From Actinernus sp. WN-2022 (taxonomy: Eukaryota; Cnidaria; Anthozoa; Actiniaria; Actinernidae), in the NCBI GenBank assembly GCA_030867875.1, contig JAOWCC010000936.1, positions 14,950,095 through 15,014,094 of the forward strand: 64,000 bases of DNA. Reading direction: 5' to 3'. This document shows, one piece after another, positions 15,392 to 64,000 of the stretch (positions are counted from its first letter, which is position 1; the number at the start of each line of letters is the position of its first letter). The position numbers were made by a program, and so were the translations under genes. The notes under the pieces are model-generated. The model was given only the letters and a program-made list of their open reading frames with translations. It was not told the DNA's origin and did no database searches.

Positions 15392-16029
15392 TGAGGCACG
15401 TTTACACAAAAACAGTCTTAGACAAGAAGGCTCCATTTGTGTTAACATGCTTCATGTTGTGTGCTTCTTCACTTTAAGAGGCAATAACGCGCTTTCCAGT
15501 GTTTTATTTTAAGAGCAAATGACAGTATCTGACTTTTCTGGCCTTTCGATCCCATAATGCCTTTGTCTCAGATCTATCCCAAAATTTCTTTATTTGAGAG
15601 CTAGAGGTTGGGGTTAGGTTAGAAAAAACGCCATTTTCTGGTATTTCTACTCCAAATTCGGCGAAACGGGCACGCTAGGATTAAAGTACTGGAAGAGACC
15701 GTTGTTTTGACGTGTAGTACGTCGAAATCCATTGTAAGCTCGAGAAATGGCGCCACTTTGAGGAGTTTAGGCTATACAAGTAATTTTGAGAGATTAACGT
15801 TAGGTTACAAAAACCACATTTTCTGGTATTTCTACTCCAAATACGGCAAAACTGGCAAGCTAGGATTAAAGTACTGGAAGAGACCGTTGTTTTGACGTGT
15901 AGTACGTCGAAATCCATTAAAAGCTCGAGAAATGGCGCCACTTTGAAGAGTTTAGGGTACACAAAATGAGGCACGTTTACACAAAAACAGTCTTAGACAA
16001 GAAGGCTCCATTTGTGTTAACATGCTTCA
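15392..16029. mobile_element. 638-bp element bounded by identical 63-bp hairpins; relative of the 402-bp satellite
   Basis: The same 63-bp sequence stands at 15392-15454 and 15967-16029. Each copy is an imperfect stem-loop (TGAGGCACGTTTACACAAAA at one side, TTTGTGTTAACATGCTTCA at the other). (TA)n lies outside both ends. The body contains a ~190-bp segment twice (about 15628-15775 and 15806-15955), holding GGAAGAGACCGTTGTTTTGA and AGCTCGAGAAATGGCGCCAC. No credible ORF. Several body blocks align in order with the 402-bp satellite read on the minus strand: ATCCCATAAT, CGGCAAAA, GACCGTT-TTTTG, AATCCAT...TCGAG-AA--GCG-C, and GGT-CACA before the hairpin. So both belong to one repeat family. Confidence 0.82.
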
Positions 16030-16523
16030 TATATATATATATATATATTGTTAATGTATGTATTCAATATGTGGCAAAGCGCAAATAAATAAATTACCAT
16101 GAGCATCAGTAGTGAATCAATTATCTGGCTCCCCTAGGACAAGCCATGTATGACACAAACATATGCTAGAACTCCATGAACTACACATATTCACCTATTC
16201 CTAAGTGGCCCGAGTTAAGGCCAATCAGGGCCTCTAGTTATTTTTGTTGTCTACGCCAAAAGTTGCACATTCGTCGCTAATTTCATCGGAGAATGTTGAG
16301 CCATCCTGTACCGCTCGAGACGAGCCACAGCATTGGCTTTCCCAACAATACAAAACACCCTAACCTTTAGAACGTGCAATTCGAAAACAATAAAGCTACA
16401 GAATAATGGGTGCAATCAGAATACAGATCTCGAGCGGTACAGGATTACTGGGAATCACACTTGGAGTCAACTAATCGGGGAAAGAAATGGTCTAAGTCGT
16501 AGTTCTTGACCACCATTGTGAAA
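16030..16523. other. intron sequence with one long-loop inverted repeat
   Basis: ATCCTGTACCGCTCGAGA (16303-16320) is exactly inverted at 16428-16445 around ~107 bp, probably a small MITE. The rest shows nothing recognisable. Confidence 0.5.
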
Positions 16524-16686
16524 GATAACCAAGCCTTTGGTGACATCGAGGCTGGAGTTGAGACAGCTTAGTTGGAGATTTGTATCTACATGTAGTTAGC
16601 ATGATAATCAAAATTTATCCATATATTAATATTGTATCGGTGCAGGGTCAACTCCAGCCTCCATGCGAGGCTAAGGCTTGGTTACC
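16524..16686. repeat. 163-bp foldback element
   Basis: Arms of ~39 bp (16524-16562 and 16647-16686) pair through AACCAAGCCTT and GAGGCTGGAGTTGA with a few mismatches; an AT-rich ~85-bp centre. Confidence 0.7.
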
Positions 16687-17055
16687 TTCCATGGGTCTGA
16701 AATATACGTTTATATTATCTAAGTATAATAAAGTTGATATGCATTTTATCACAACAGGAATTTTAACCCAGTACATAAATTATGTAACAATCGAAATTTA
16801 TCTTATATTTTGCCCATATTGGTTTCACGTGCGCGATTTGACGAGTTTGTAACTCCTAGGCGTTACGTGATAAATATATTATTGTATTGCACTGCAACTA
16901 CGAATTGGCTTTTGATGACGATGAGAAATCGCACAACTAGGAAAGAAATCATCGGAGCAATGGCAAGATACATTTTAATCACAGCTTGAACCCCTTTTCC
17001 GAAATCGTAATTTGATTCAAAACAGCAAGAGGCATGTGAGAGTGAACCGACATAC

Positions 17056-17201
17056 CTCCTGAAGCTCGATATCACTCCCTGTTATTGTCCTTTTCCTCGT
17101 ACTCTTTCGTCGTCTCCAGTAGATAAAGCAGATCAACAATAGAAGAGCGAGAAGGATGAGAAATATCGGGGTTGCAATCATCATGAAGGTTTCCCAATAT
17201 A
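17056..17201 (-). CDS. receptor tyrosine kinase, transmembrane and juxtamembrane exon
   Basis: A 146-bp exon (phase 1 in, phase 0 out), acceptor TGGCTTCTAG and donor GTATGT. It encodes a short extracellular end (YWETF), then one hydrophobic helix of ~24 residues (MMIATPIFLILLALLLLICF). The basic stop-transfer stretch YWRRRKSTRKR follows, then TITGSDIELQE. The basic run sets the downstream side as cytoplasmic. It links the FN3 exon (phase 1) to the kinase exon (phase 0) in frame, which is strong support for a single-pass receptor kinase. Confidence 0.88.
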
Positions 17202-18375
17202 CTAGAAGCCATTCAAAATAGCAAAGTGTAAATGAAACGGTTTGAAACTATATAACGAGACGTTGGGAGTGGTTAGGTTTAGGGTTTATTACAAATACAT
17301 ACAAATAATACATTACTATATATACATGTAGTTATTATATGGACAAAACATAAATTTTGAAACATATAATATGGATTAATCGGCAAAACATCAGTCGCTA
17401 GAGTTAATAGTTAGCGCTTATAATAGCATTTGATTTCCCTTTTGTATTGTATTTCATTCAACGTGCATGGGAGAGTATTACAAGTCAGGTAAGGTATGGT
17501 TGTAGTATAATTTTGGAGAGCTAAAAATCTAATTCAAACTTGGTGAATTTCGATTATGGTCTCCCTCCAAATGATTTATACGCTGCTAAGCGTCTTTTGT
17601 ACCTCTGCTGCAAAACGTATGCGTAATATCTGGACAAACAGTAGCGACAAAAAGAAAATTTCGTATATTTCGAATGATATAAAGGACAATAGCTACAATT
17701 TAAACTAGCTTATCTTATCCACTGGATAATGATTTATCCGGTGCATAACGTTATCCACCCTTTGAATAACCGGGCCCTGGTATTCTTAGGTGCTAGCAAT
17801 CACTCGTGATTGTAAACTGCTGTCACTCATGATTGTAAACTGCACGGCAGCACATTGCACCACAATAGCAGTCCGTATCACAAACATAATCTTGTAAAGC
17901 GCATTTAAATATATCCATTTATATAATAATCAGTTCGAATCGCACGCTCTGATTGGTCAAGAGCCGTGTTTTATTAGAGGAGACACACATGGATGGCGTC
18001 ATGATCGCGCGCAAGTCGTTTTGATTTATTTCATAGTTTTAGTTTAATTGGATATTTTCATAGTTTTGAGTTTGCGATTATTATATGGAACAAATATATT
18101 CCATTCTGTCCTACATCTGTCCTCTTATAGATGCATAGATGACGTCAAATGTGAAGAGAACATCAGTTACGCCACTCGACTGCGTCTCTCTCGTTCTTTG
18201 TTCTCTTCTCGTTGTGACGTCATCTGTGCATCTATGAGAGGACAGACGCACGGAAGAATGGAAGCCATTTGTTAAATAAAATTTGCGCTATAGAAATGAA
18301 TACCTTTACTTTTACATATAATCACATAATTTATATAGACTTATTATACGATGTACCAAAAGCTTGCTTACTTAC
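17202..18375. other. intron between FN3 and TM exons
   Basis: AT-rich; near 17710-17770 there is a small palindrome-rich patch (TTATCCACTGGATAA, TTATCCGGTG, ATAACCGGGCC), probably a worn MITE. A clearer MITE is at 18117-18245. Confidence 0.5.
18117..18245. repeat. 129-bp foldback MITE (family also seen at 36910)
   Basis: Arms of ~46 bp: CTGTCCTCTTATAGATGCAT and GATGACGTCAAATGTGAAGA on the left, with the inverse on the right (TCTTCTCGTTGTGACGTCAT, ATCTATGAGAGGACAG). About 35 bp of loop. A half copy of the same sequence is at 36910-36960. Confidence 0.75.
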
Positions 18376-18669
18376 TTGAGGGGGTTGAAATTTCCAGTGT
18401 ATCACTTGGAATACCGACACCTATGTCATTAATAGATGACGCTTGCACTTTATAGTTAGTACCCGACTCAAGGTTTGATATCGTGTAGGTGTCGATGTGT
18501 TTAGATAAAGGAGTACTCTTAACCCAAGCATCTTCTCCAAACTTCTTGTGCTGTATGACGTACTGCTTGACACCGTAGGCAATGTGATAAAGCGGCGACT
18601 TCCACTCAAGTCGGATTTGGGTCTTTTGAACATTTGCGGCAGTAAGGTTTTGGGGTGGAGGTGGCTTCA
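18376..18669 (-). CDS. receptor tyrosine kinase, fibronectin type III exon
   Basis: A 294-bp exon (phase 1 both sides), acceptor TTTTTTCAACAG and donor GTAAGT. It encodes one complete FN3 domain: PPPPQNLTA at the start, the core Trp in IRLEWKSP, YVIQHKKFG in strand C, LESGTNYKVQASSIN (the L...G-x-x-Y-x-V-x-A-x-N signature), and GVGIPSDTLEIST at the end. FN3 domains fill the membrane-proximal stalk of many receptor kinases; here it is followed directly by the transmembrane exon. One exon for one domain with phase 1-1 borders is the classic shuffled-module form. Confidence 0.92.
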
Positions 18670-20611: not shown

Positions 20612-20860
20612 TAATACATGGCCCGGTGGAGATACCGATTTTATCTTCAAGTGTTGATGAAATATTTCATCAACACGAGAAGATAAAATTCGTATCTACA
20701 AGCGGCCATGTAATGTTCTGTTTAATATATAATTATCGATGAAATACCAGTTTCAATTTCTTACTAAAAAGTGATATCTTGTGAAGATATTACTTTTTAG
20801 AAAGAAATATACACTGGTATTTCATCGATTATTATATATTAAATCGATTTATTACATGGC
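20612..20860. repeat. two adjacent long stem-loops sharing GCCATGTAAT ends
   Basis: 20612-20714 folds through GATTTTATCTTC and GTGTTGATGAAAT with their inverses. 20721-20843 folds through TATCGATGAAATACCAGT and TTACTAAAAAGTGATATCTT with their inverses. GGCCATGTAAT (20704) and ATTACATGGC (20851-20860) look like terminal inverted repeats of the second unit, so these are two neighbouring MITEs or one composite. GCCATGTAATA recurs near 21081. Confidence 0.75.
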
Positions 20861-21532
20861 AAGCTGGATTCGTGGCAAATGGAGAAATCTGATTGGTTCT
20901 TCAACGGTCCGGTAAATCGTCGTAAGACCGGTCGGTCCCTCAGCCAATCAGAAATGACCTCTCACAGGCTCTCATGGAGCTGCCCAATCAGACACAATGC
21001 TACTGTAGCTGTACCATTGCAGTGATACATATATTGTTGGCAAAAACAAAAACTGAAGCACAGCTTTGTTCAGCAAAAGCCATGTAATAAAACCTTTATT
21101 GACCAAGCTTGTACGGTCCGGATGGGAGAATATTGGTCTCTAATTTTTGTGTATGTATGGACCTCGACCTTCGGGCTCGGTATCCCCCATCCGGACTCAC
21201 ACTTGGTATATAACCTCTCTATATTACTTCAAGTGTCCGTAAATATGGCTTTATAGCTCTATAAACACTTCACGTTACTTAGACCAGTTGTAAATCTGAG
21301 TAACTGCGGTTTTCTTAAACAAAAGGGGCAAAAGAATATATTGAAATTGAACCAATAAAACTTTATACAAAGAGTAAGCATAAAGCTGTATTGTTTAACT
21401 GGACAATCAAATAAGCGGTATAATTCACAGAAGCGAATGATTGAATTTCAACCGAAGACCGCGACATTCTAAGAATAAAACAATAAAACAAAACTACAAT
21501 TACAGTGAAACTACCAACAATGCTTTCCTTAC
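20861..21532. other. intron sequence, no gene
   Basis: One inverted pair, GGTCCGGATGGGAGAATA and CCCCCATCCGGACT (about 21116-21206), suggests a small MITE. Otherwise nothing recognised. Confidence 0.45.
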
Positions 21533-21711
21533 CCTTTGGCTTCAGCGATGCAGGGTTGAACCTTAACGTTCCAACTATACCATTTTTCTCTAAAACCGTG
21601 ATGATTGCAGTATTCGACACGTTGATTTTAATATCTGGAGGAGGTTTTTCGTCCGGTTTCTTTACTTCTATTTTGAATATGACACGGAATGACACCTCAA
21701 TGCTTCCGTTT
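21533..21711 (-). CDS. receptor tyrosine kinase, third SEA-domain exon
   Basis: A 179-bp exon (phase 2 in, phase 1 out), acceptor TTTTTTTCAG and donor GTAAGG. It begins at NGSIEVSFRVIFKIEVKK. G-S-I/V-x-V followed by alternating hydrophobics is the SEA-domain strand pair that in many family members is the self-cleavage site (between Gly and Ser). After a Pro-rich turn (KPDEKPPPD) comes the last half of the domain: IKINVSNTAIITVLEKNG, ending LRFNPASLKPK. It joins exon 36542-36600 upstream (completing a Lys codon) and the FN3 exon downstream. Whether the protein is cleaved cannot be told from sequence alone. Confidence 0.85.
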
Positions 21712-44765: not shown

Positions 44766-45007
44766 CGAAACTGACATATTATAAGCACTATATTTGTGTC
44801 TACCTGACCATTATTATTTTGTTGCCGTTGTTGTTATGATAAATATACATATATGTAGTACATAAATAGATATAGATGAGTGTGTGTATATATGTTTATA
44901 TATTGTACAAACATCTGTATTTTGTTCTCTCTTTTCCTTCTCTTTTTCTCTATCTTTTGTTCTTATTTCATAATATTTACATTAATTATTACATCATACA
45001 CAAGTAT

Positions 45008-48000
45008 ATGAGGCATGTTAACACAAAAAGAGTGTACCTTGCTAAGGCGCCTTTTGTGTTGACATGCGTCAATATGTGCACCGTTTCAGTTTCAACTGGC
45101 CGCTGTTGCTCGAAATCTTGATGGATTGTAATGCGGTTTGCAGCAAAAGAACCGTCTTTGTCTATAGAACAACTGTTGACTGCGTTTTTGCCGCACCTGG
45201 TCATTGGAAACACCCCAAAATGTCACTTTTAGTTGATCAACTGGAAAAAGGTGATAAGGTAGAAAATCTCGAAAAATTCCAAATCTCAAACAAGGAAATT
45301 ATGGGATAGAATGGCTATACATGGAAGCAAGTGTCATTTTACAACCATTGAAACCTAGACTATCAGTTATCAGCGCTTTAAACTGAGGAAATCGAGAATT
45401 CCACACAAGATGAGGCATGTTAACACAAAAAGAGTGTACCTTGCTAAGGCGCCTTTTGTGTTGACATGCGTCAATATGTGCACCGTTTCAGTTTCAACTG
45501 GCCGCTGTTGCTCGAAATCTTGATGGATTGTAATGCGGTTTGCAGCAAAAGAACCGTCTTTGTCTATAGAACAACTGTTGACTGCGTTTTTGCCGCACCT
45601 GGTCATTGGAAACACCCCAAAATGTCACTTTTAGTTGATCAACTGGAAAAAGGTGATAAGGTAGAAAATCTCGAAAAATTCCAAATCTCAAACAAGGAAA
45701 TTATGGGATAGAATGGCTATACATGGAAGCAAGTGTCATTTTACAACCATTGAAACCTAGACTATCAGTTATCAGCGCTTTAAACTGAGGAAATCGAGAA
45801 TTCCACACAAGATGAGGCATGTTAACACAAAAAGAGTGTACCTTGCTAAGGCGCCTTTTGTGTTGACATGCGTCAATATGTGCACCGTTTCAGTTTCAAC
45901 TGGCCGCTGTTGCTCGAAATCTTGATGGATTGTAATGCGGTTTGCAGCAAAAGAACCGTCTTTGTCTATAGAACAACTGTTGACTGCGTTTTTGCCGCAC
46001 CTGGTCAATGGAAACACCCCAAAATGTCACTTTTAGTTGATCAACTGGAAAAAGGTGATAAGGTAGAAAATCTCGAAAAATTCCAAATCTCAAACAAGGA
46101 AATTATGGGATAGAATGGCTATACATGGAAGCAAGTGTCATTTTACAACCATTGAAACCTAGACTATCAGTTATCAGCGCTTTAAACTGAGGAAATCGAG
46201 AATTCCACACAAGATGAGGCATGTTAACACAAAAAGAGTGTACCTTGCTAAGGCGCCTTTTGTGTTGACATGCGTCAATATGTGCACCGTTTCAGTTTCA
46301 ACTGGCCGCTGTTGCTCGAAATCTTGATGGATTGTAATGCGGTTTGCAGCAAAAGAACCGTCTTTGTCTATAGAACAACTGTTGACTGCGTTTTTGCCGC
46401 ATCTGGTCATTGGAAACACCCCAAAATATCACTTTTAGTTGATCAACTGGAAAAAGGTGATAAGGTAGAAAATCTCGAAAAATTCCAAATCTCAAACAAG
46501 GAAATTATGGGATAGAATGGCTATACATGGAAGCAAGTGTCATTTTACAACCATTGAAACCTAGACTATCAGTTATCAGCGCTTTAAACTGAGGAAATCG
46601 AGAATTCCACACAAGATGAGGCATGTTAACACAAAAAGAGTGTACCTTGCTAAGGCGCCTTTTGTGTTGACATGCGTCAATATGTGCACCGTTTCAGTTT
46701 CAACTGGCCGCTGTTGCTCGAAATCTTGATGGATTGTAATGCGGTTTGCAGCAAAAGAACCGTCTTTGTCTATAGAACAACTGTTGACTGCGTTTTTGCC
46801 GCACCTGGTCATTGGAAACACCCCAAAATGTCACTTTTAGTTGATCAACTGGAAAAAGGTGATAAGGTAGAAAATCTCGAAAAATTCCAAATCTCAAACA
46901 AGGAAATTATGGGATAGAATGGCTATACATGGAAGCAAGTGTCATTTTACAACCATTGAAACCTAGACTATCAGTTATCAGCGCTTTAAACTGAGGAAAT
47001 CGAGAATTCCACACAAGATGAGGCATGTTAACACAAAAAGAGTGTACCTTGCTAAGGCGCCTTTTGTGTTGACATGCGTCAATATGTGCACCGTTTCAGT
47101 TTCAACTGGCCGCTGTTGCTCGAAATCTTGATGGATTGTAATGCGGTTTGCAGCAAAAGAACCGTCTTTGTCTATAGAACAACTGTTGACTGCGTTTTTG
47201 CCGCACCTGGTCAATGGAAACACCCCAAAATGTCACTTTTAGTTGATCAACTGGAAAAAGGTGATAAGGTAGAAAATCTCGAAAAATTCCAAATCTCAAA
47301 CAAGGAAATTATGGGATAGAATGGCTATACATGGAAGCAAGTGTCATTTTACAACCATTGAAACCTAGACTATCAGTTATCAGCGCTTTAAACTGAGGAA
47401 ATCGAGAATTCCACACAAGATGAGGCATGTTAACACAAAAAGAGTGTACCTTGCTAAGGCGCCTTTTGTGTTGACATGCGTCAATATGTGCACCGTTTCA
47501 GTTTCAACTGGCCGCTGTTGCTCGAAATCTTGATGGATTGTAATGCGGTTTGCAGCAAAAGAACCGTCTTTGTCTATAGAACAACTGTTGACTGCGTTTT
47601 TGCCGCACCTGGTCATTGGAAACACCCCAAAATGTCACTTTTAGTTGATCAACTGGAAAAAGGTGATAAGGTAGAAAATCTCGAAAAATTCCAAATCTCA
47701 AACAAGGAAATTATGGGATAGAATGGCTATACATGGAAGCAAGTGTCATTTTACAACCATTGAAACCTAGACTATCAGTTATCAGCGCTTTAAACTGAGG
47801 AAATCGAGAATTCCACACAAGATGAGGCATGTTAACACAAAAAGAGTGTACCTTGCTAAGGCGCCTTTTGTGTTGACATGCGTCAATATGTGCACCGTTT
47901 CAGTTTCAACTGGCCGCTGTTGCTCGAAATCTTGATGGATTGTAATGCGGTTTGCAGCAAAAGAACCGTCTTTGTCTATAGAACAACTGTTGACTGCGTT

Positions 48001-51000
48001 TTTGCCGCACCTGGTCATTGGAAACACCCCAAAATGTCACTTTTAGTTGATCAACTGGAAAAAGGTGATAAGGTAGAAAATCTCGAAAAATTCCAAATCT
48101 CAAACAAGGAAATTATGGGATAGAATGGCTATACATGGAAGCAAGTGTCATTTTACAACCATTGAAACCTAGACTATCAGTTATCAGCGCTTTAAACTGA
48201 GGAAATCGAGAATTCCACACAAGATGAGGCATGTTAACACAAAAAGAGTGTACCTTGCTAAGGCGCCTTTTGTGTTGACATGCGTCAATATGTGCACCGT
48301 TTCAGTTTCAACTGGCCGCTGTTGCTCGAAATCTTGATGGATTGTAATGCGGTTTGCAGCAAAAGAACCGTCTTTGTCTATAGAACAACTGTTGACTGCG
48401 TTTTTGCCGCACCTGGTCATTGGAAACACCCCAAAATGTCACTTTTAGTTGATCAACTGGAAAAAGGTGATAAGGTAGAAAATCTCGAAAAATTCCAAAT
48501 CTCAAACAAGGAAATTATGGGATAGAATGGCTATACATGGAAGCAAGTGTCATTTTACAACCATTGAAACCTAGACTATCAGTTATCAGCGCTTTAAACT
48601 GAGGAAATCGAGAATTCCACACAAGATGAGGCATGTTAACACAAAAAGAGTGTACCTTGCTAAGGCGCCTTTTGTGTTGACATGCGTCAATATGTGCACC
48701 GTTTCAGTTTCAACTGGCCGCTGTTGCTCGAAATCTTGATGGATTGTAATGCGGTTTGCAGCAAAAGAACCGTCTTTGTCTATAGAACAACTGTTGACTG
48801 CTTTTTGCCGCACCTGGTCATTGGAAACACCCCAAAATGTCACTTTTAGTTGATCAACTGGAAAAAGGTGATAAGGTAGAAAATCTCGAAAAATTCCAAA
48901 TCTCAAACAAGGAAATTATGGGATAGAATGGCTATACATGGAAGCAAGTGTCATTTTACAACCATTGAAACCTAGACTATCAGTTATCAGCGCTTTAAAC
49001 TGAGGAAATCGAGAATTCCACACAAGATGAGGCATGTTAACACAAAAAGAGTGTACCTTGCTAAGGCGCCTTTTGTGTTGACATGCGTCAATATGTGCAC
49101 CGTTTCAGTTTCAACTGGCCGCTGTTGCTCGAAATCTTGATGGATTGTAATGCGGTTTGCAGCAAAAGAACCGTCTTTGTCTATAGAACAACTGTTGACT
49201 GCGTTTTTGCCGCACCTGGTCATTGGAAACACCCCAAAATGTCACTTTTAGTTGATCAACTGGAAAAAGGTGATAAGGTAGAAAATCTCGAAAAATTCCA
49301 AATCTCAAACAAGGAAATTATGGGATAGAATGGCTATACATGGAAGCAAGTGTCATTTTACAACCATTGAAACCTAGACTATCAGTTATCAGCGCTTTAA
49401 ACTGAGGAAATCGAGAATTCCACACAAGATGAGGCATGTTAACACAAAAAGAGTGTACCTTGCTAAGGCGCCTTTTGTGTTGACATGCGTCAATATGTGC
49501 ACCGTTTCAGTTTCAACTGGCCGCTGTTGCTCGAAATCTTGATGGATTGTAATGCGGTTTGCAGCAAAAGAACCGTCTTTGTCTATAGAACAACTGTTGA
49601 CTGCGTTTTTGCCGCACCTGGTCATTGGAAACACCCCAAAATGTCACTTTTAGTTGATCAACTGGAAAAAGGTGATAAGGTAGAAAATCTCGAAAAATTC
49701 CAAATCTCAAACAAGGAAATTATGGGATAGAATGGCTATACATGGAAGCAAGTGTCATTTTACAACCATTGAAACCTAGACTATCAGTTATCAGCGCTTT
49801 AAACTGAGGAAATCGAGAATTCCACACAAGATGAGGCATGTTAACACAAAAAGAGTGTACCTTGCTAAGGCGCCTTTTGTGTTGACATGCGTCAATATGT
49901 GCACCGTTTCAGTTTCAACTGGCCGCTGTTGCTCGAAATCTTGATGGATTGTAATGCGGTTTGCAGCAAAAGAACCGTCTTTGTCTATAGAACAACTGTT
50001 GACTGCGTTTTTGCCGCACCTGGTCAATGGAAACACCCCAAAATGTCACTTTTAGTTGATCAACTGGAAAAAGGTGATAAGGTAGAAAATCTCGAAAAAT
50101 TCCAAATCTCAAACAAGGAAATTATGGGATAGAATGGCTATACATGGAAGCAAGTGTCATTTTACAACCATTGAAACCTAGACTATCAGTTATCAGCGCT
50201 TTAAACTGAGGAAATCGAGAATTCCACACAAGATGAGGCATGTTAACACAAAAAGAGTGTACCTTGCTAAGGCGCCTTTTGTGTTGACATGCGTCAATAT
50301 GTGCACCGTTTCAGTTTCAACTGGCCGCTGTTGCTCGAAATCTTGATGGATTGTAATGCGGTTTGCAGCAAAAGAACCGTCTTTGTCTATAGAACAACTG
50401 TTGACTGCGTTTTTGCCGCACCTGGTCATTGGAAACACCCCAAAATGTCACTTTTAGTTGATCAACTGGAAAAAGGTGATAAGGTAGAAAATCTCGAAAA
50501 ATTCCAAATCTCAAACAAGGAAATTATGGGATAGAATGGCTATACATGGAAGCAAGTGTCATTTTACAACCATTGAAACCTAGACTATCAGTTATCAGCG
50601 CTTTAAACTGAGGAAATCGAGAATTCCACACAAGATGAGGCATGTTAACACAAAAAGAGTGTACCTTGCTAAGGCGCCTTTTGTGTTGACATGCGTCAAT
50701 ATGTGCACCGTTTCAGTTTCAACTGGCCGCTGTTGCTCGAAATCTTGATGGATTGTAATGCGGTTTGCAGCAAAAGAACCGTCTTTGTCTATAGAACAAC
50801 TGTTGACTGCGTTTTTGCCGCACCTGGTCATTGGAAACACCCCAAAATGTCACTTTTAGTTGATCAACTGGAAAAAGGTGATAAGGTAGAAAATCTCGAA
50901 AAATTCCAAATCTCAAACAAGGAAATTATGGGATAGAATGGCTATACATGGAAGCAAGTGTCATTTTACAACCATTGAAACCTAGACTATCAGTTATCAG

Positions 51001-54000
51001 CGCTTTAAACTGAGGAAATCGAGAATTCCACACAAGATGAGGCATGTTAACACAAAAAGAGTGTACCTTGCTAAGGCGCCTTTTGTGTTGACATGCGTCA
51101 ATATGTGCACCGTTTCAGTTTCAACTGGCCGCTGTTGCTCGAAATCTTGATGGATTGTAATGCGGTTTGCAGCAAAAGAACCGTCTTTGTCTATAGAACA
51201 ACTGTTGACTGCGTTTTTGCCGCACCTGGTCATTGGAAACACCCCAAAATGTCACTTTTAGTTGATCAACTGGAAAAAGGTGATAAGGTAGAAAATCTCG
51301 AAAAATTCCAAATCTCAAACAAGGAAATTATGGGATAGAATGGCTATACATGGAAGCAAGTGTCATTTTACAACCATTGAAACCTAGACTATCAGTTATC
51401 AGCGCTTTAAACTGAGGAAATCGAGAATTCCACACAAGATGAGGCATGTTAACACAAAAAGAGTGTACCTTGCTAAGGCGCCTTTTGTGTTGACATGCGT
51501 CAATATGTGCACCGTTTCAGTTTCAACTGGCCGCTGTTGCTCGAAATCTTGATGGATTGTAATGCGGTTTGCAGCAAAAGAACCGTCTTTGTCTATAGAA
51601 CAACTGTTGACTGCGTTTTTGCCGCACCTGGTCAATGGAAACACCCCAAAATGTCACTTTTAGTTGATCAACTGGAAAAAGGTGATAAGGTAGAAAATCT
51701 CGAAAAATTCCAAATCTCAAACAAGGAAATTATGGGATAGAATGGCTATACATGGAAGCAAGTGTCATTTTACAACCATTGAAACCTAGACTATCAGTTA
51801 TCAGCGCTTTAAACTGAGGAAATCGAGAATTCCACACAAGATGAGGCATGTTAACACAAAAAGAGTGTACCTTGCTAAGGCGCCTTTTGTGTTGACATGC
51901 GTCAATATGTGCACCGTTTCAGTTTCAACTGGCCGCTGTTGCTCGAAATCTTGATGGATTGTAATGCGGTTTGCAGCAAAAGAACCGTCTTTGTCTATAG
52001 AACAACTGTTGACTGCGTTTTTGCCGCATCTGGTCATTGGAAACACCCCAAAATATCACTTTTAGTTGATCAACTGGAAAAAGGTGATAAGGTAGAAAAT
52101 CTCGAAAAATTCCAAATCTCAAACAAGGAAATTATGGGATAGAATGGCTATACATGGAAGCAAGTGTCATTTTACAACCATTGAAACCTAGACTATCAGT
52201 TATCAGCGCTTTAAACTGAGGAAATCGAGAATTCCACACAAGATGAGGCATGTTAACACAAAAAGAGTGTACCTTGCTAAGGCGCCTTTTGTGTTGACAT
52301 GCGTCAATATGTGCACCGTTTCAGTTTCAACTGGCCGCTGTTGCTCGAAATCTTGATGGATTGTAATGCGGTTTGCAGCAAAAGAACCGTCTTTGTCTAT
52401 AGAACAACTGTTGACTGCGTTTTTGCCGCACCTGGTCATTGGAAACACCCCAAAATGTCACTTTTAGTTGATCAACTGGAAAAAGGTGATAAGGTAGAAA
52501 ATCTCGAAAAATTCCAAATCTCAAACAAGGAAATTATGGGATAGAATGGCTATACATGGAAGCAAGTGTCATTTTACAACCATTGAAACCTAGACTATCA
52601 GTTATCAGCGCTTTAAACTGAGGAAATCGAGAATTCCACACAAGATGAGGCATGTTAACACAAAAAGAGTGTACCTTGCTAAGGCGCCTTTTGTGTTGAC
52701 ATGCGTCAATATGTGCACCGTTTCAGTTTCAACTGGCCGCTGTTGCTCGAAATCTTGATGGATTGTAATGCGGTTTGCAGCAAAAGAACCGTCTTTGTCT
52801 ATAGAACAACTGTTGACTGCGTTTTTGCCGCACCTGGTCAATGGAAACACCCCAAAATGTCACTTTTAGTTGATCAACTGGAAAAAGGTGATAAGGTAGA
52901 AAATCTCGAAAAATTCCAAATCTCAAACAAGGAAATTATGGGATAGAATGGCTATACATGGAAGCAAGTGTCATTTTACAACCATTGAAACCTAGACTAT
53001 CAGTTATCAGCGCTTTAAACTGAGGAAATCGAGAATTCCACACAAGATGAGGCATGTTAACACAAAAAGAGTGTACCTTGCTAAGGCGCCTTTTGTGTTG
53101 ACATGCGTCAATATGTGCACCGTTTCAGTTTCAACTGGCCGCTGTTGCTCGAAATCTTGATGGATTGTAATGCGGTTTGCAGCAAAAGAACCGTCTTTGT
53201 CTATAGAACAACTGTTGACTGCGTTTTTGCCGCACCTGGTCATTGGAAACACCCCAAAATGTCACTTTTAGTTGATCAACTGGAAAAAGGTGATAAGGTA
53301 GAAAATCTCGAAAAATTCCAAATCTCAAACAAGGAAATTATGGGATAGAATGGCTATACATGGAAGCAAGTGTCATTTTACAACCATTGAAACCTAGACT
53401 ATCAGTTATCAGCGCTTTAAACTGAGGAAATCGAGAATTCCACACAAGATGAGGCATGTTAACACAAAAAGAGTGTACCTTGCTAAGGCGCCTTTTGTGT
53501 TGACATGCGTCAATATGTGCACCGTTTCAGTTTCAACTGGCCGCTGTTGCTCGAAATCTTGATGGATTGTAATGCGGTTTGCAGCAAAAGAACCGTCTTT
53601 GTCTATAGAACAACTGTTGACTGCGTTTTTGCCGCACCTGGTCATTGGAAACACCCCAAAATGTCACTTTTAGTTGATCAACTGGAAAAAGGTGATAAGG
53701 TAGAAAATCTCGAAAAATTCCAAATCTCAAACAAGGAAATTATGGGATAGAATGGCTATACATGGAAGCAAGTGTCATTTTACAACCATTGAAACCTAGA
53801 CTATCAGTTATCAGCGCTTTAAACTGAGGAAATCGAGAATTCCACACAAGATGAGGCATGTTAACACAAAAAGAGTGTACCTTGCTAAGGCGCCTTTTGT
53901 GTTGACATGCGTCAATATGTGCACCGTTTCAGTTTCAACTGGCCGCTGTTGCTCGAAATCTTGATGGATTGTAATGCGGTTTGCAGCAAAAGAACCGTCT

Positions 54001-57000
54001 TTGTCTATAGAACAACTGTTGACTGCGTTTTTGCCGCACCTGGTCATTGGAAACACCCCAAAATGTCACTTTTAGTTGATCAACTGGAAAAAGGTGATAA
54101 GGTAGAAAATCTCGAAAAATTCCAAATCTCAAACAAGGAAATTATGGGATAGAATGGCTATACATGGAAGCAAGTGTCATTTTACAACCATTGAAACCTA
54201 GACTATCAGTTATCAGCGCTTTAAACTGAGGAAATCGAGAATTCCACACAAGATGAGGCATGTTAACACAAAAAGAGTGTACCTTGCTAAGGCGCCTTTT
54301 GTGTTGACATGCGTCAATATGTGCACCGTTTCAGTTTCAACTGGCCGCTGTTGCTCGAAATCTTGATGGATTGTAATGCGGTTTGCAGCAAAAGAACCGT
54401 CTTTGTCTATAGAACAACTGTTGACTGCGTTTTTGCCGCACCTGGTCATTGGAAACACCCCAAAATGTCACTTTTAGTTGATCAACTGGAAAAAGGTGAT
54501 AAGGTAGAAAATCTCGAAAAATTCCAAATCTCAAACAAGGAAATTATGGGATAGAATGGCTATACATGGAAGCAAGTGTCATTTTACAACCATTGAAACC
54601 TAGACTATCAGTTATCAGCGCTTTAAACTGAGGAAATCGAGAATTCCACACAAGATGAGGCATGTTAACACAAAAAGAGTGTACCTTGCTAAGGCGCCTT
54701 TTGTGTTGACATGCGTCAATATGTGCACCGTTTCAGTTTCAACTGGCCGCTGTTGCTCGAAATCTTGATGGATTGTAATGCGGTTTGCAGCAAAAGAACC
54801 GTCTTTGTCTATAGAACAACTGTTGACTGCGTTTTTGCCGCACCTGGTCATTGGAAACACCCCAAAATGTCACTTTTAGTTGATCAACTGGAAAAAGGTG
54901 ATAAGGTAGAAAATCTCGAAAAATTCCAAATCTCAAACAAGGAAATTATGGGATAGAATGGCTATACATGGAAGCAAGTGTCATTTTACAACCATTGAAA
55001 CCTAGACTATCAGTTATCAGCGCTTTAAACTGAGGAAATCGAGAATTCCACACAAGATGAGGCATGTTAACACAAAAAGAGTGTACCTTGCTAAGGCGCC
55101 TTTTGTGTTGACATGCGTCAATATGTGCACCGTTTCAGTTTCAACTGGCCGCTGTTGCTCGAAATCTTGATGGATTGTAATGCGGTTTGCAGCAAAAGAA
55201 CCGTCTTTGTCTATAGAACAACTGTTGACTGCGTTTTTGCCGCACCTGGTCATTGGAAACACCCCAAAATGTCACTTTTAGTTGATCAACTGGAAAAAGG
55301 TGATAAGGTAGAAAATCTCGAAAAATTCCAAATCTCAAACAAGGAAATTATGGGATAGAATGGCTATACATGGAAGCAAGTGTCATTTTACAACCATTGA
55401 AACCTAGACTATCAGTTATCAGCGCTTTAAACTGAGGAAATCGAGAATTCCACACAAGATGAGGCATGTTAACACAAAAAGAGTGTACCTTGCTAAGGCG
55501 CCTTTTGTGTTGACATGCGTCAATATGTGCACCGTTTCAGTTTCAACTGGCCGCTGTTGCTCGAAATCTTGATGGATTGTAATGCGGTTTGCAGCAAAAG
55601 AACCGTCTTTGTCTATAGAACAACTGTTGACTGCGTTTTTGCCGCACCTGGTCATTGGAAACACCCCAAAATGTCACTTTTAGTTGATCAACTGGAAAAA
55701 GGTGATAAGGTAGAAAATCTCGAAAAATTCCAAATCTCAAACAAGGAAATTATGGGATAGAATGGCTATACATGGAAGCAAGTGTCATTTTACAACCATT
55801 GAAACCTAGACTATCAGTTATCAGCGCTTTAAACTGAGGAAATCGAGAATTCCACACAAGATGAGGCATGTTAACACAAAAAGAGTGTACCTTGCTAAGG
55901 CGCCTTTTGTGTTGACATGCGTCAATATGTGCACCGTTTCAGTTTCAACTGGCCGCTGTTGCTCGAAATCTTGATGGATTGTAATGCGGTTTGCAGCAAA
56001 AGAACCGTCTTTGTCTATAGAACAACTGTTGACTGCGTTTTTGCCGCACCTGGTCATTGGAAACACCCCAAAATGTCACTTTTAGTTGATCAACTGGAAA
56101 AAGGTGATAAGGTAGAAAATCTCGAAAAATTCCAAATCTCAAACAAGGAAATTATGGGATAGAATGGCTATACATGGAAGCAAGTGTCATTTTACAACCA
56201 TTGAAACCTAGACTATCAGTTATCAGCGCTTTAAACTGAGGAAATCGAGAATTCCACACAAGATGAGGCATGTTAACACAAAAAGAGTGTACCTTGCTAA
56301 GGCGCCTTTTGTGTTGACATGCGTCAATATGTGCACCGTTTCAGTTTCAACTGGCCGCTGTTGCTCGAAATCTTGATGGATTGTAATGCGGTTTGCAGCA
56401 AAAGAACCGTCTTTGTCTATAGAACAACTGTTGACTGCGTTTTTGCCGCACCTGGTCATTGGAAACACCCCAAAATGTCACTTTTAGTTGATCAACTGGA
56501 AAAAGGTGATAAGGTAGAAAATCTCGAAAAATTCCAAATCTCAAACAAGGAAATTATGGGATAGAATGGCTATACATGGAAGCAAGTGTCATTTTACAAC
56601 CATTGAAACCTAGACTATCAGTTATCAGCGCTTTAAACTGAGGAAATCGAGAATTCCACACAAGATGAGGCATGTTAACACAAAAAGAGTGTACCTTGCT
56701 AAGGCGCCTTTTGTGTTGACATGCGTCAATATGTGCACCGTTTCAGTTTCAACTGGCCGCTGTTGCTCGAAATCTTGATGGATTGTAATGCGGTTTGCAG
56801 CAAAAGAACCGTCTTTGTCTATAGAACAACTGTTGACTGCGTTTTTGCCGCACCTGGTCATTGGAAACACCCCAAAATGTCACTTTTAGTTGATCAACTG
56901 GAAAAAGGTGATAAGGTAGAAAATCTCGAAAAATTCCAAATCTCAAACAAGGAAATTATGGGATAGAATGGCTATACATGGAAGCAAGTGTCATTTTACA

Positions 57001-60000
57001 ACCATTGAAACCTAGACTATCAGTTATCAGCGCTTTAAACTGAGGAAATCGAGAATTCCACACAAGATGAGGCATGTTAACACAAAAAGAGTGTACCTTG
57101 CTAAGGCGCCTTTTGTGTTGACATGCGTCAATATGTGCACCGTTTCAGTTTCAACTGGCCGCTGTTGCTCGAAATCTTGATGGATTGTAATGCGGTTTGC
57201 AGCAAAAGAACCGTCTTTGTCTATAGAACAACTGTTGACTGCGTTTTTGCCGCACCTGGTCATTGGAAACACCCCAAAATGTCACTTTTAGTTGATCAAC
57301 TGGAAAAAGGTGATAAGGTAGAAAATCTCGAAAAATTCCAAATCTCAAACAAGGAAATTATGGGATAGAATGGCTATACATGGAAGCAAGTGTCATTTTA
57401 CAACCATTGAAACCTAGACTATCAGTTATCAGCGCTTTAAACTGAGGAAATCGAGAATTCCACACAAGATGAGGCATGTTAACACAAAAAGAGTGTACCT
57501 TGCTAAGGCGCCTTTTGTGTTGACATGCGTCAATATGTGCACCGTTTCAGTTTCAACTGGCCGCTGTTGCTCGAAATCTTGATGGATTGTAATGCGGTTT
57601 GCAGCAAAAGAACCGTCTTTGTCTATAGAACAACTGTTGACTGCGTTTTTGCCGCACCTGGTCATTGGAAACACCCCAAAATGTCACTTTTAGTTGATCA
57701 ACTGGAAAAAGGTGATAAGGTAGAAAATCTCGAAAAATTCCAAATCTCAAACAAGGAAATTATGGGATAGAATGGCTATACATGGAAGCAAGTGTCATTT
57801 TACAACCATTGAAACCTAGACTATCAGTTATCAGCGCTTTAAACTGAGGAAATCGAGAATTCCACACAAGATGAGGCATGTTAACACAAAAAGAGTGTAC
57901 CTTGCTAAGGCGCCTTTTGTGTTGACATGCGTCAATATGTGCACCGTTTCAGTTTCAACTGGCCGCTGTTGCTCGAAATCTTGATGGATTGTAATGCGGT
58001 TTGCAGCAAAAGAACCGTCTTTGTCTATAGAACAACTGTTGACTGCGTTTTTGCCGCATCTGGTCATTGGAAACACCCCAAAATATCACTTTTAGTTGAT
58101 CAACTGGAAAAAGGTGATAAGGTAGAAAATCTCGAAAAATTCCAAATCTCAAACAAGGAAATTATGGGATAGAATGGCTATACATGGAAGCAAGTGTCAT
58201 TTTACAACCATTGAAACCTAGACTATCAGTTATCAGCGCTTTAAACTGAGGAAATCGAGAATTCCACACAAGATGAGGCATGTTAACACAAAAAGAGTGT
58301 ACCTTGCTAAGGCGCCTTTTGTGTTGACATGCGTCAATATGTGCACCGTTTCAGTTTCAACTGGCCGCTGTTGCTCGAAATCTTGATGGATTGTAATGCG
58401 GTTTGCAGCAAAAGAACCGTCTTTGTCTATAGAACAACTGTTGACTGCGTTTTTGCCGCACCTGGTCATTGGAAACACCCCAAAATGTCACTTTTAGTTG
58501 ATCAACTGGAAAAAGGTGATAAGGTAGAAAATCTCGAAAAATTCCAAATCTCAAACAAGGAAATTATGGGATAGAATGGCTATACATGGAAGCAAGTGTC
58601 ATTTTACAACCATTGAAACCTAGACTATCAGTTATCAGCGCTTTAAACTGAGGAAATCGAGAATTCCACACAAGATGAGGCATGTTAACACAAAAAGAGT
58701 GTACCTTGCTAAGGCGCCTTTTGTGTTGACATGCGTCAATATGTGCACCGTTTCAGTTTCAACTGGCCGCTGTTGCTCGAAATCTTGATGGATTGTAATG
58801 CGGTTTGCAGCAAAAGAACCGTCTTTGTCTATAGAACAACTGTTGACTGCGTTTTTGCCGCACCTGGTCATTGGAAACACCCCAAAATGTCACTTTTAGT
58901 TGATCAACTGGAAAAAGGTGATAAGGTAGAAAATCTCGAAAAATTCCAAATCTCAAACAAGGAAATTATGGGATAGAATGGCTATACATGGAAGCAAGTG
59001 TCATTTTACAACCATTGAAACCTAGACTATCAGTTATCAGCGCTTTAAACTGAGGAAATCGAGAATTCCACACAAGATGAGGCATGTTAACACAAAAAGA
59101 GTGTACCTTGCTAAGGCGCCTTTTGTGTTGACATGCGTCAATATGTGCACCGTTTCAGTTTCAACTGGCCGCTGTTGCTCGAAATCTTGATGGATTGTAA
59201 TGCGGTTTGCAGCAAAAGAACCGTCTTTGTCTATAGAACAACTGTTGACTGCGTTTTTGCCGCACCTGGTCATTGGAAACACCCCAAAATGTCACTTTTA
59301 GTTGATCAACTGGAAAAAGGTGATAAGGTAGAAAATCTCGAAAAATTCCAAATCTCAAACAAGGAAATTATGGGATAGAATGGCTATACATGGAAGCAAG
59401 TGTCATTTTACAACCATTGAAACCTAGACTATCAGTTATCAGCGCTTTAAACTGAGGAAATCGAGAATTCCACACAAGATGAGGCATGTTAACACAAAAA
59501 GAGTGTACCTTGCTAAGGCGCCTTTTGTGTTGACATGCGTCAATATGTGCACCGTTTCAGTTTCAACTGGCCGCTGTTGCTCGAAATCTTGATGGATTGT
59601 AATGCGGTTTGCAGCAAAAGAACCGTCTTTGTCTATAGAACAACTGTTGACTGCGTTTTTGCCGCACCTGGTCATTGGAAACACCCCAAAATGTCACTTT
59701 TAGTTGATCAACTGGAAAAAGGTGATAAGGTAGAAAATCTCGAAAAATTCCAAATCTCAAACAAGGAAATTATGGGATAGAATGGCTATACATGGAAGCA
59801 AGTGTCATTTTACAACCATTGAAACCTAGACTATCAGTTATCAGCGCTTTAAACTGAGGAAATCGAGAATTCCACACAAGATGAGGCATGTTAACACAAA
59901 AAGAGTGTACCTTGCTAAGGCGCCTTTTGTGTTGACATGCGTCAATATGTGCACCGTTTCAGTTTCAACTGGCCGCTGTTGCTCGAAATCTTGATGGATT

Positions 60001-63000
60001 GTAATGCGGTTTGCAGCAAAAGAACCGTCTTTGTCTATAGAACAACTGTTGACTGCGTTTTTGCCGCACCTGGTCATTGGAAACACCCCAAAATGTCACT
60101 TTTAGTTGATCAACTGGAAAAAGGTGATAAGGTAGAAAATCTCGAAAAATTCCAAATCTCAAACAAGGAAATTATGGGATAGAATGGCTATACATGGAAG
60201 CAAGTGTCATTTTACAACCATTGAAACCTAGACTATCAGTTATCAGCGCTTTAAACTGAGGAAATCGAGAATTCCACACAAGATGAGGCATGTTAACACA
60301 AAAAGAGTGTACCTTGCTAAGGCGCCTTTTGTGTTGACATGCGTCAATATGTGCACCGTTTCAGTTTCAACTGGCCGCTGTTGCTCGAAATCTTGATGGA
60401 TTGTAATGCGGTTTGCAGCAAAAGAACCGTCTTTGTCTATAGAACAACTGTTGACTGCGTTTTTGCCGCACCTGGTCAATGGAAACACCCCAAAATGTCA
60501 CTTTTAGTTGATCAACTGGAAAAAGGTGATAAGGTAGAAAATCTCGAAAAATTCCAAATCTCAAACAAGGAAATTATGGGATAGAATGGCTATACATGGA
60601 AGCAAGTGTCATTTTACAACCATTGAAACCTAGACTATCAGTTATCAGCGCTTTAAACTGAGGAAATCGAGAATTCCACACAAGATGAGGCATGTTAACA
60701 CAAAAAGAGTGTACCTTGCTAAGGCGCCTTTTGTGTTGACATGCGTCAATATGTGCACCGTTTCAGTTTCAACTGGCCGCTGTTGCTCGAAATCTTGATG
60801 GATTGTAATGCGGTTTGCAGCAAAAGAACCGTCTTTGTCTATAGAACAACTGTTGACTGCGTTTTTGCCGCACCTGGTCATTGGAAACACCCCAAAATGT
60901 CACTTTTAGTTGATCAACTGGAAAAAGGTGATAAGGTAGAAAATCTCGAAAAATTCCAAATCTCAAACAAGGAAATTATGGGATAGAATGGCTATACATG
61001 GAAGCAAGTGTCATTTTACAACCATTGAAACCTAGACTATCAGTTATCAGCGCTTTAAACTGAGGAAATCGAGAATTCCACACAAGATGAGGCATGTTAA
61101 CACAAAAAGAGTGTACCTTGCTAAGGCGCCTTTTGTGTTGACATGCGTCAATATGTGCACCGTTTCAGTTTCAACTGGCCGCTGTTGCTCGAAATCTTGA
61201 TGGATTGTAATGCGGTTTGCAGCAAAAGAACCGTCTTTGTCTATAGAACAACTGTTGACTGCGTTTTTGCCGCACCTGGTCATTGGAAACACCCCAAAAT
61301 GTCACTTTTAGTTGATCAACTGGAAAAAGGTGATAAGGTAGAAAATCTCGAAAAATTCCAAATCTCAAACAAGGAAATTATGGGATAGAATGGCTATACA
61401 TGGAAGCAAGTGTCATTTTACAACCATTGAAACCTAGACTATCAGTTATCAGCGCTTTAAACTGAGGAAATCGAGAATTCCACACAAGATGAGGCATGTT
61501 AACACAAAAAGAGTGTACCTTGCTAAGGCGCCTTTTGTGTTGACATGCGTCAATATGTGCACCGTTTCAGTTTCAACTGGCCGCTGTTGCTCGAAATCTT
61601 GATGGATTGTAATGCGGTTTGCAGCAAAAGAACCGTCTTTGTCTATAGAACAACTGTTGACTGCGTTTTTGCCGCACCTGGTCATTGGAAACACCCCAAA
61701 ATGTCACTTTTAGTTGATCAACTGGAAAAAGGTGATAAGGTAGAAAATCTCGAAAAATTCCAAATCTCAAACAAGGAAATTATGGGATAGAATGGCTATA
61801 CATGGAAGCAAGTGTCATTTTACAACCATTGAAACCTAGACTATCAGTTATCAGCGCTTTAAACTGAGGAAATCGAGAATTCCACACAAGATGAGGCATG
61901 TTAACACAAAAAGAGTGTACCTTGCTAAGGCGCCTTTTGTGTTGACATGCGTCAATATGTGCACCGTTTCAGTTTCAACTGGCCGCTGTTGCTCGAAATC
62001 TTGATGGATTGTAATGCGGTTTGCAGCAAAAGAACCGTCTTTGTCTATAGAACAACTGTTGACTGCGTTTTTGCCGCACCTGGTCATTGGAAACACCCCA
62101 AAATGTCACTTTTAGTTGATCAACTGGAAAAAGGTGATAAGGTAGAAAATCTCGAAAAATTCCAAATCTCAAACAAGGAAATTATGGGATAGAATGGCTA
62201 TACATGGAAGCAAGTGTCATTTTACAACCATTGAAACCTAGACTATCAGTTATCAGCGCTTTAAACTGAGGAAATCGAGAATTCCACACAAGATGAGGCA
62301 TGTTAACACAAAAAGAGTGTACCTTGCTAAGGCGCCTTTTGTGTTGACATGCGTCAATATGTGCACCGTTTCAGTTTCAACTGGCCGCTGTTGCTCGAAA
62401 TCTTGATGGATTGTAATGCGGTTTGCAGCAAAAGAACCGTCTTTGTCTATAGAACAACTGTTGACTGCTTTNNNNNNNNNNNNNNNNNNNNNNNNNNNNN
62501 NNNNNNNNNNNNNNNNNNNNNNNNNNNNNNNNNNNNNNNNNNNNNNNNNNNNNNNNNNNNNNNNNNNNNNNATCAGTTATCAGCGCTTTAAACTGAGGAA
62601 ATCGAGAATTCCACACAAGATGAGGCATGTTAACACAAAAAGAGTGTACCTTGCTAAGGCGCCTTTTGTGTTGACATGCGTCAATATGTGCACCGTTTCA
62701 GTTTCAACTGGCCGCTGTTGCTCGAAATCTTGATGGATTGTAATGCGGTTTGCAGCAAAAGAACCGTCTTTGTCTATAGAACAACTGTTGACTGCGTTTT
62801 TGCCGCACCTGGTCATTGGAAACACCCCAAAATGTCACTTTTAGTTGATCAACTGGAAAAAGGTGATAAGGTAGAAAATCTCGAAAAATTCCAAATCTCA
62901 AACAAGGAAATTATGGGATAGAATGGCTATACATGGAAGCAAGTGTCATTTTACAACCATTGAAACCTAGACTATCAGTTATCAGCGCTTTAAACTGAGG

Positions 63001-64000
63001 AAATCGAGAATTCCACACAAGATGAGGCATGTTAACACAAAAAGAGTGTACCTTGCTAAGGCGCCTTTTGTGTTGACATGCGTCAATATGTGCACCGTTT
63101 CAGTTTCAACTGGCCGCTGTTGCTCGAAATCTTGATGGATTGTAATGCGGTTTGCAGCAAAAGAACCGTCTTTGTCTATAGAACAACTGTTGACTGCGTT
63201 TTTGCCGCACCTGGTCATTGGAAACACCCCAAAATGTCACTTTTAGTTGATCAACTGGAAAAAGGTGATAAGGTAGAAAATCTCGAAAAATTCCAAATCT
63301 CAAACAAGGAAATTATGGGATAGAATGGCTATACATGGAAGCAAGTGTCATTTTACAACCATTGAAACCTAGACTATCAGTTATCAGCGCTTTAAACTGA
63401 GGAAATCGAGAATTCCACACAAGATGAGGCATGTTAACACAAAAAGAGTGTACCTTGCTAAGGCGCCTTTTGTGTTGACATGCGTCAATATGTGCACCGT
63501 TTCAGTTTCAACTGGCCGCTGTTGCTCGAAATCTTGATGGATTGTAATGCGGTTTGCAGCAAAAGAACCGTCTTTGTCTATAGAACAACTGTTGACTGCG
63601 TTTTTGCCGCACCTGGTCATTGGAAACACCCCAAAATGTCACTTTTAGTTGATCAACTGGAAAAAGGTGATAAGGTAGAAAATCTCGAAAAATTCCAAAT
63701 CTCAAACAAGGAAATTATGGGATAGAATGGCTATACATGGAAGCAAGTGTCATTTTACAACCATTGAAACCTAGACTATCAGTTATCAGCGCTTTAAACT
63801 GAGGAAATCGAGAATTCCACACAAGATGAGGCATGTTAACACAAAAAGAGTGTACCTTGCTAAGGCGCCTTTTGTGTTGACATGCGTCAATATGTGCACC
63901 GTTTCAGTTTCAACTGGCCGCTGTTGCTCGAAATCTTGATGGATTGTAATGCGGTTTGCAGCAAAAGAACCGTCTTTGTCTATAGAACAACTGTTGACTG
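45008..64000. repeat. 402-bp satellite array, about 47 copies, continuing past the window end
   Basis: Monomers repeat every 402 bp (one of 401 bp at about 48682) with near identity. The array starts exactly at the hairpin of the first monomer (TGAGGCATGTTAACACAAAA ... TTTTGTGTTGACATGCGTCA, 20-bp arms with two mismatches, inner CCTTGCTAAGG hairpin). Common monomers are broken by three variants: B (GTCAATGG for GTCATTGG; monomers near 45868, 47074, 49887, 51495, 52701, 60339), C (GCATCTGG plus AAAATATCAC; near 46270, 51897, 57927) and D (one G lost in GACTGCGTTTTT; near 48682 and 62349). Since 402 is divisible by 3, small ORFs of 81, 65 and 81 codons recur in every copy. I see no sign they are genes. 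Confidence 0.97.
62472..62571. other. assembly gap of exactly 100 N inside the satellite
   Basis: Phase shows the true missing length is not 100. The matching variant-D monomer (48682) has 174 bases between the same flanking words, so the real gap is 174 + n x 402 bp. The 100 N is a placeholder, and the array's true length is unknown. Confidence 0.95.

Follow-up and report, generated by a model that had tools for sequence, protein, structure and literature searches.

Dispersed hairpin-bounded units and a 402-bp satellite of one repeat family at TA sites in Actinernus sp.

Several described systems combine terminal repeats with tandem arrays, and they form the background for a hairpin-bounded repeat family found in a stretch of 64,000 nucleotides of the cnidarian Actinernus sp. 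(hereafter the window; C1706:14950095-15014094 of a 1.39-Gb assembly in 1772 contigs). The window holds a dispersed copy of this family, element E, and the beginning of a long array of a 402-bp satellite; our results suggest that the two are states of one family, and that the arrays probably grew from single insertions. Among the described systems, KolobokP carries, according to the sections of the source used here (PMC9587614), direct terminal repeats of ~450 or 660 bp that have their own inverted ends and RR...YY termini. It includes coding elements and derivatives, and it occurs as single units and as multimers of the form (LTDR-INT)n-LTDR, which share terminal repeats and are flanked by target duplications of 3-5 bp; in the Kolobok superfamily these are specific for TTAA. 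The terminal repeats can be excised, and both growth by unequal crossover and insertion via circles have been proposed.

The excerpts available for biv-TRIM and Cassandra present small elements with terminal direct repeats and arrays sharing them, which in a clam reach TDR58_I57 (PMC6934838, PMC7215508). SaTar, MuTAnT and Ac-mMITE are described as short non-autonomous elements with terminal inverted repeats in TA microsatellites; they are plant Mutator-like elements with duplications of 9-10 bp (PMC5907723, PMC4486113, PMC8449440), and copies of SaTar and Ac-mMITE can be linked across microsatellites without being nested (PMC5907723, PMC8449440). Finally, a non-autonomous DNA transposon is described as the source of satellite arrays or tandem repeats in the case of Tetris/TIR-220 (PMC4079207), and the same kind of derivation is summarised for Xstir and miDNA4 in part of PMC12628747.

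Relationship between element E and the 402-bp satellite

A sequence-only reading of the window had proposed that E and the satellite are one family with a common bounding hairpin, and the minus strand of the monomer indeed matches E when the hairpins are included (nhmmer, E=2.6e-18). It had also claimed body blocks in opposite orientation, and had named in advance the comparison of masked bodies with shuffled sequence as the one on which the proposal depended. With the hairpins masked, the body of E and the reverse-complemented monomer reach a local alignment score of 38, whereas 300 dinucleotide shuffles do not exceed 20 (mean 13.4, standard deviation (SD) 2.0), so the antiparallel blocks are present and the bodies align far better than shuffled sequence. 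The same alignment in parallel orientation scores 17, a value reached by 13/300 shuffles.

E differs from the monomer mainly in carrying its 186-bp internal repeat, R, twice. When the second copy is kept, 454 bp of E can be aligned over their full length with monomer plus hairpin (468 bp) in reverse complement, with 317/425 aligned positions identical over 497 columns. Global alignment of the bodies alone, trimmed of the hairpins and 12 further bp, gives a score of 92 (z 8.4, second copy kept) against 300 shuffles with a mean of -7.5, an SD of 11.9 and a maximum of 30; without trimming the score is 107, compared with a maximum of 31 among 390 random window segments. Keeping the first R copy instead gives z 5.9-6.7, and over all variants the bodies exceed shuffles by 5.9-9.4 SD. 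The parallel global alignment also lies above shuffles (z 2.6-4.4), although far less than the antiparallel one. On these alignments, E and the 402-bp satellite are confirmed as one family in opposite orientation. The hairpin of E matches that of the satellite at 53/61 positions in parallel and 50/64 in antiparallel orientation; because it is nearly symmetric and matches about equally both ways, its own orientation cannot be assigned. Its identity is somewhat above that of the body (50/67 versus 218/364 columns, Fisher p 0.028).

The anatomy of both forms is as the sequence-only reading had described it: the dispersed copy has a hairpin and a TA run at both ends, and the array consists of 402-bp units, head to tail, with one hairpin each (table 1). 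The terminal hairpins of E are imperfect, yet mutually identical, while its R copies differ in 13/167 columns. In the window, the array contains 45 full-length monomers that carry 12 substitutions in total and represent only three sequences, and their hairpins are free of substitutions. A variant block of the order A-B-consensus-A at 45812-47419 recurs 14 units on, at 51439-53046, hinting at block duplication within the array. The 400 bp that precede the array contain no decayed monomer.

Table 1. Repeats, arrays and their boundaries (window positions unless a contig is named)
Feature	Coordinates	Strand	Remarks
Dispersed element E	15392..16029	+	hairpin, body with two internal ~186-bp copies, hairpin; (TA)n directly outside both ends
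Left terminal hairpin of E	15392..15454	+	63 bp, TG...CA; identical to right hairpin; fold z ~-4.2
Right terminal hairpin of E	15967..16029	+	63 bp; direct repeat of left hairpin
Internal repeat R, first copy	15613..15798	+	92% to second copy over 167 columns
Internal repeat R, second copy	15799..15964	+	tandem duplication within E
TA run, left end of E	15372..15391		common to neighbouring foldback element
TA run, right end of E	16030..16048
402-bp satellite array, window part	45009..64000	+	one hairpin per monomer, head to tail
First array hairpin	45009..45071	+	array starts at its outer edge
Left TA of target-site duplication of the 90.8-kb array	45007..45008		right TA at C1706:15085920-15085921
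N run within array	62472..62571		assembly gap
Whole array of the window, C1706	C1706:14995103-15085919		90.8 kb; (hairpin-body)n-hairpin, n ~226; followed to both ends, sampled, one 100-N gap; continues past window end 64000; ends hairpin edge + TA
Array on C540	C540:35205013-35253159		48.1 kb; ends hairpin edge + TA; N run inside
Array on C685	C685:110404116-110774792		370.7 kb; ends hairpin edge + TA
Array on C1312	C1312:163496301-163615966		119.7 kb; ends hairpin edge + TA; E-type units

Copy number, array ends and target sites

The terminal arm of the family following TATA (TATA-TGANGCAYGTNNACACAA) occurs at 459 places in the genome, and a control with the reversed pattern occurs at none; the left-arm pattern occurs at 131 places, 100 of which are listed. 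The copy-number series is drawn from 100 listed places of the 459, which comprise 22 convergent pairs and 56 unpaired termini. Each of the 15 pairs that belong to the 402 type combines a left with a right arm, which means that its hairpins are direct. Seven of them span exactly 402n+63 (n=1 four times, and 4, 5 and 26), and the other eight deviate, with small indels, gaps and lost hairpins among the causes seen. Probes inside four longer spans (three on C635, one on C398) met satellite in 6/6 cases. A single dispersed 402-type unit on C235, in (TA)n, is identical to the satellite consensus at 437/466 positions. Copies have the form (hairpin-body)n-hairpin and range from single units of 465 or ~639 bp up to arrays of 48, 91, 120 and 371 kb, so that unit numbers of 1, 4, 5, 26, ~120, ~226 and ~920 are present in one genome. 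There are no solo hairpins among the 22 listed pairs, and no search aimed at them was made.

Of the 722 candidates from a genome search with E, 19 were scored; they include dispersed copies of one unit, a small number of multimers and, on C1312, a long array of ~576-bp units. Dispersed single units and long arrays are both present in each subfamily, the 402 type and the E type. In the stretches read, the hairpins on C1312 are spaced at 391, 576, 946, 1131 and 1316, that is, 206+185n, and the number of inner repeats therefore varies too. At locus L094 (C888:34265000-34272500) there is a multimer with hairpin spacings of 379, 749 and 749. Two copies were counted once with their duplicates: C1195:200086, whose flanks are those of E in the window, and C464:71643, whose flanks are those of C464:341856.

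Four large arrays were followed to their ends, and at 8/8 ends the outer edge of a hairpin stands beside TA. If ends fell at random in a 402-bp unit, eight such ends would have a probability of ~1.5e-21. The discovery of the arrays was independent of their ends, as three were found by the monomer and one by E, and the outer junctions read contain no N.

Two of the arrays occupy sites that are uninterrupted elsewhere. When the flanks of the C1706 array are joined with a single TA, they match C1195:231890-232234 at 100% (345/346 bases) and C290 at 99%, with identities of 81-96% at another 38 places; 40/40 scored places run uninterrupted across the junction (40 scored of 193 candidates; the count leaves out 15 short pieces). 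The 80 bases around the junction on C1195 equal the joined flanks letter for letter, with one TA in the uninterrupted site and two around the 90.8-kb array; this TA duplication is resolved at the C1706 array only, and the site has only two TA steps. C1195 is probably the other haplotype, since it also carries E with its flanks (99.8% over 3,640 bp) ~32 kb before the site, compared with ~29.6 kb on C1706; recent duplication is the alternative. For the 371-kb array on C685, the TA run is uninterrupted in 38/38 listed paralogous places (40 scored of 217 candidates), and the two further scored rows are halves of the array's own site. Insertion at TA sites is thereby shown for the family. The uninterrupted target (44990-45010) reads ACACAAGTATATG, which resembles the ACACAAG preceding each internal hairpin, by chance or by target similarity.

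Identity within arrays (0.994-0.999) is higher than between arrays (0.980-0.991, random pairs), and the monomer search gave no full-length 100% match outside C1706 among 17 scored of 66 candidates. In copies with two hairpins, these are identical in 7/9 cases and differ by one base in 2/9, leaving aside two multimers, on C464 and C888. Neighbouring hairpins of the C888 multimer differ by 0, 0 and 0, and a fifth, slightly longer hairpin stands at its end. A base absent from the other compared copies is present in both hairpins of the C789 copy, and several differences from the satellite consensus are each present in both hairpins of the C235 copy. Because the hairpins of one copy are mostly identical and share such differences, the second hairpin seems to have been copied from the first. 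This may have happened by exchange or conversion, through a circle formed between the two identical hairpins, as the sequence-only reading had offered as a possibility, or when the copy was excised from a homogenised array; all of these would fit alike. E itself might derive from a homogenised array, because its hairpins are identical while its internal copies differ, and the ~576-bp-unit array on C1312 fits this idea, which had been recorded before that search. At L128 (C685:110749500-110750500) one array unit cleanly lacks its hairpin, with AT left over, like an excision footprint. This is the only hairpin-lacking junction with two extra bases among 172 examined in 402-type arrays, a count that is not a rate because the stretch was chosen after a probe had matched there, and an excision footprint is only suggested by it.

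Proposed growth in place and its alternatives

We consider it likely that a TA-targeting, non-autonomous element resembling a miniature inverted-repeat transposable element (MITE) inserts as a small copy and then amplifies in place into a satellite. Its ends are the same 63-bp imperfect hairpin in direct orientation, and therefore the outer arms of the left and right hairpin form terminal inverted repeats (TGANGCAYGT--ACACAA). Most likely, a short hairpin-body-hairpin copy is inserted at TA, often in TA microsatellites, by a transposase provided in trans. The insertion could then grow to (hairpin-body)n-hairpin by recombination between direct repeats, whether through unequal exchange, break-induced copying or rolling-circle copying, and the outermost hairpins and the TA duplication would stay fixed during growth. 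The satellite of the window would thus be one grown insertion of ~226 units, and E a single-unit insertion of a sister subfamily whose own 120-kb array lies elsewhere.

The transposase and the recombination route are inferred, as is growth in place. The latter is suggested by the higher identity within than between arrays and by the lack of any listed 100% full-length C1706 monomer elsewhere; it also agrees with the graded series of sizes and with the observed survival of both outer ends, which growth by recombination between direct repeats would preserve. The sequence-only reading had allowed either direction. Its view of mobile unit and satellite as two states is supported by the genome, and the change from mobile unit to satellite is the better direction, because two large arrays occupy sites uninterrupted elsewhere.

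Several points weigh against growth in place from a mobile unit. No coding partner is known, and no search for a transposase was made; the units are non-coding, and none of the 22 listed pairs has been shown to be coding. Of the 100 listed termini, 56 have no convergent partner that matches the exact pattern, and the ends of dispersed copies are less independent evidence, because several were found by patterns that require intact ends. Between their ends, the large arrays are known only from sampled stretches and from probes. One end of the C888 multimer (C888:34268014) breaks off inside R; at the other end its hairpin is followed by CATATATATG, with TA not directly adjoining. Adjacent hairpins in the C464 copy are not identical, with differences in 5 and 1 columns. 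For the C540 array, joining the flanks gave no uninterrupted site among 40 scored of 2835, the left flank there being a high-copy repeat that ends at TA.

A possible, if doubtful, extension is that the hairpin itself is the transposase's unit, a bidirectional end, so that segments from one unit to 91-371 kb would all be legitimate transposons. The junction without a hairpin, at which two bases are left, looks as if a hairpin had been excised alone. In that case, arrays would both arise from insertions and seed them.

It is unlikely that the arrays were ready-made, that is, long linear or circular multimers produced elsewhere and integrated in one step at TA via their outermost hairpins. Both terminal arms are present in every stretch of an array that runs from one hairpin to another, all eight ends are hairpin edges with TA, and the identity of 7/9 hairpin pairs would be expected if these copies had been excised from a homogenised array or made from a circle with one hairpin. 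However, the matches listed for the C1706 array include no donor array of the same sequence type, the remaining arrays in the comparison being 98-99% identical, and for a cut-and-paste transposase to insert 91 or 371 kb would, in our judgement, be extraordinary.

Very improbable is a TRIM-like long terminal repeat (LTR) retrotransposon with 63-bp terminal direct repeats shared in arrays. The repeats start with TG and end with CA, and the identical pairs (7/9) resemble LTRs at insertion. No TGG-type primer-binding site was seen by eye beside either end of E in either orientation, although the biv-TRIM arrays, TDRx_I(x-1), are likewise described without a canonical one in the portion of the source cited (PMC6934838). 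What speaks against such an element is the 2-bp TA target duplication, the palindromic nature of the 63-bp repeat and the targeting of TA runs.

There is even less to recommend a rolling-circle element (Helentron or Replitron-like) with the hairpin as origin or terminator and arrays formed by run-on replication. It would agree with one hairpin per unit and near-identical head-to-tail units, and run-on arrays are described for Helitrons in the available part of PMC12628747. Helitrons are described as lacking inverted ends and target duplications. The cited part of the Replitron study (PMC10741241) reports elements of green algae and some land plants without inverted ends and with direct repeats of 5-11 bp; because Replitrons can leave duplications of 2-8 bp, the TA duplication is no argument against them. 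Both ends here are 63-bp palindromes with inverted outer arms.

That fragile, cruciform-forming hairpins and TA runs were joined by chance breakage and repair, without transposition, is hardly credible: both are palindromic and the target contains ACACAAG as before each internal hairpin, but hairpin edges bound both ends of all four large arrays followed, and the TA duplication lies at a site with only two TA steps whose uninterrupted contig is identical over 345 bases. Just as hard to accept is an assembly artefact, a misplaced array or units homogenised by polishing, for which the N runs inside the arrays of the window and C540 and the three sequences among 45 full monomers could speak, since the outer junctions were read without N, hairpin edges with TA stand at both ends and four loci have the same anatomy.

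Neighbouring elements and comparison with known systems

The DNA of the window is of animal origin, as it contains immunoglobulin-like and fibronectin-like exons, a reverse transcriptase of a long interspersed nuclear element and an LTR-type integrase. The immunoglobulin and fibronectin exons lie on the minus strand at 18368-42994 and may belong to a large adhesion-type gene; one of them matches a DSCAM C-terminal model below the curated cut-off. The frame at 14201-15220 looks, by eye, like the terminal portion of a Penelope-type element whose tail is GIY-YIG-like; neither this frame nor that at 12198-12551 has any Pfam domain. A foldback element at 15218-15371 starts CAGTCAATGCC, matches its inverted opposite end at 72/75 terminal positions and is joined to E by a TA run; CAGTC-type neighbours like it stand beside family copies at L052, L055, L092 and L135. 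Farther upstream, a 1.6-kb element (12259-13857) with a TA run on each side has inverted arms of ~430 bp, which start with CAGC and are identical at 389/431 positions. A CAGCCGCG end also follows the family copy at locus L095.

Self-cleaving ribozymes and other known RNAs were sought in the window with Rfam, with nothing at the gathering threshold; a single match in 44900-46700 (E 4.5) was rejected as chance. In viral and prokaryotic contigs, 2 and 13 matches were found, of a single arm only. At these 15 loci E matched nothing at E 0.1 and the monomer gave one weak match (E 0.073) around the arm in L014; the hairpin pattern occurs in no viral contig.

The origin of satellite DNA is an old open question that is usually argued from relics. 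Because unit numbers form a series and a 91-kb array is absent from an otherwise identical contig, the origin of a satellite at one defined base becomes something that can be timed, sampled among individuals and tested, and the emergence of satellites from a mobile element is open to study in this genome.

Like satellite DNA in general, the family forms long head-to-tail arrays of near-identical units. It shares the 2-bp TA target duplication with TA elements of the Tc1/mariner type, whose termini are CAGT-like; its own termini are TGAGGC, whereas two neighbouring TA-flanked elements do begin with CAG. LTR retrotransposons have target duplications of 4-6 bp, unlike the 2-bp TA found here, and the likeness to them lies in the TG...CA direct repeats. 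TRIM arrays are close in logic and layout to those described here. Both biv-TRIM and Cassandra are classed as LTR retrotransposons and, in the cited parts of the sources, are not described as hairpin-bounded TA insertions. Helitrons and Helentrons have no target duplication, no inverted ends and one 3' hairpin, unlike the TA duplication, inverted arms and two terminal hairpins seen here.

Insertion into TA microsatellites and unnested clusters across TA runs (the foldback element, (TA)n and E in the window, and the four loci with CAGTC-type neighbours) recall SaTar. The duplication at the one resolved site is 2-bp TA and not 9-10 bp, and growth into satellites with shared ends is not described for SaTar, MuTAnT or Ac-mMITE in the sections cited. 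Tetris/TIR-220, Xstir and miDNA4 amplify an internal or terminal part, whereas here the whole unit is amplified and the large arrays followed keep transposon-like ends on both sides. The library searches made listed nothing closer, and no paper on whole arrays with target duplications. KolobokP multimers are the nearest in logic: they too share terminal repeats, and here a target duplication is resolved at one array only. They differ from the 63-bp hairpins, 2-bp TA duplication, TG...CA ends, non-coding units and arrays of up to ~920 units described here, and the hairpin family is a member of neither KolobokP nor TRIM. Within these limits it is a variant not described before: a minimal element of the MITE kind, in which single insertions apparently grow into satellites of up to ~920 units.

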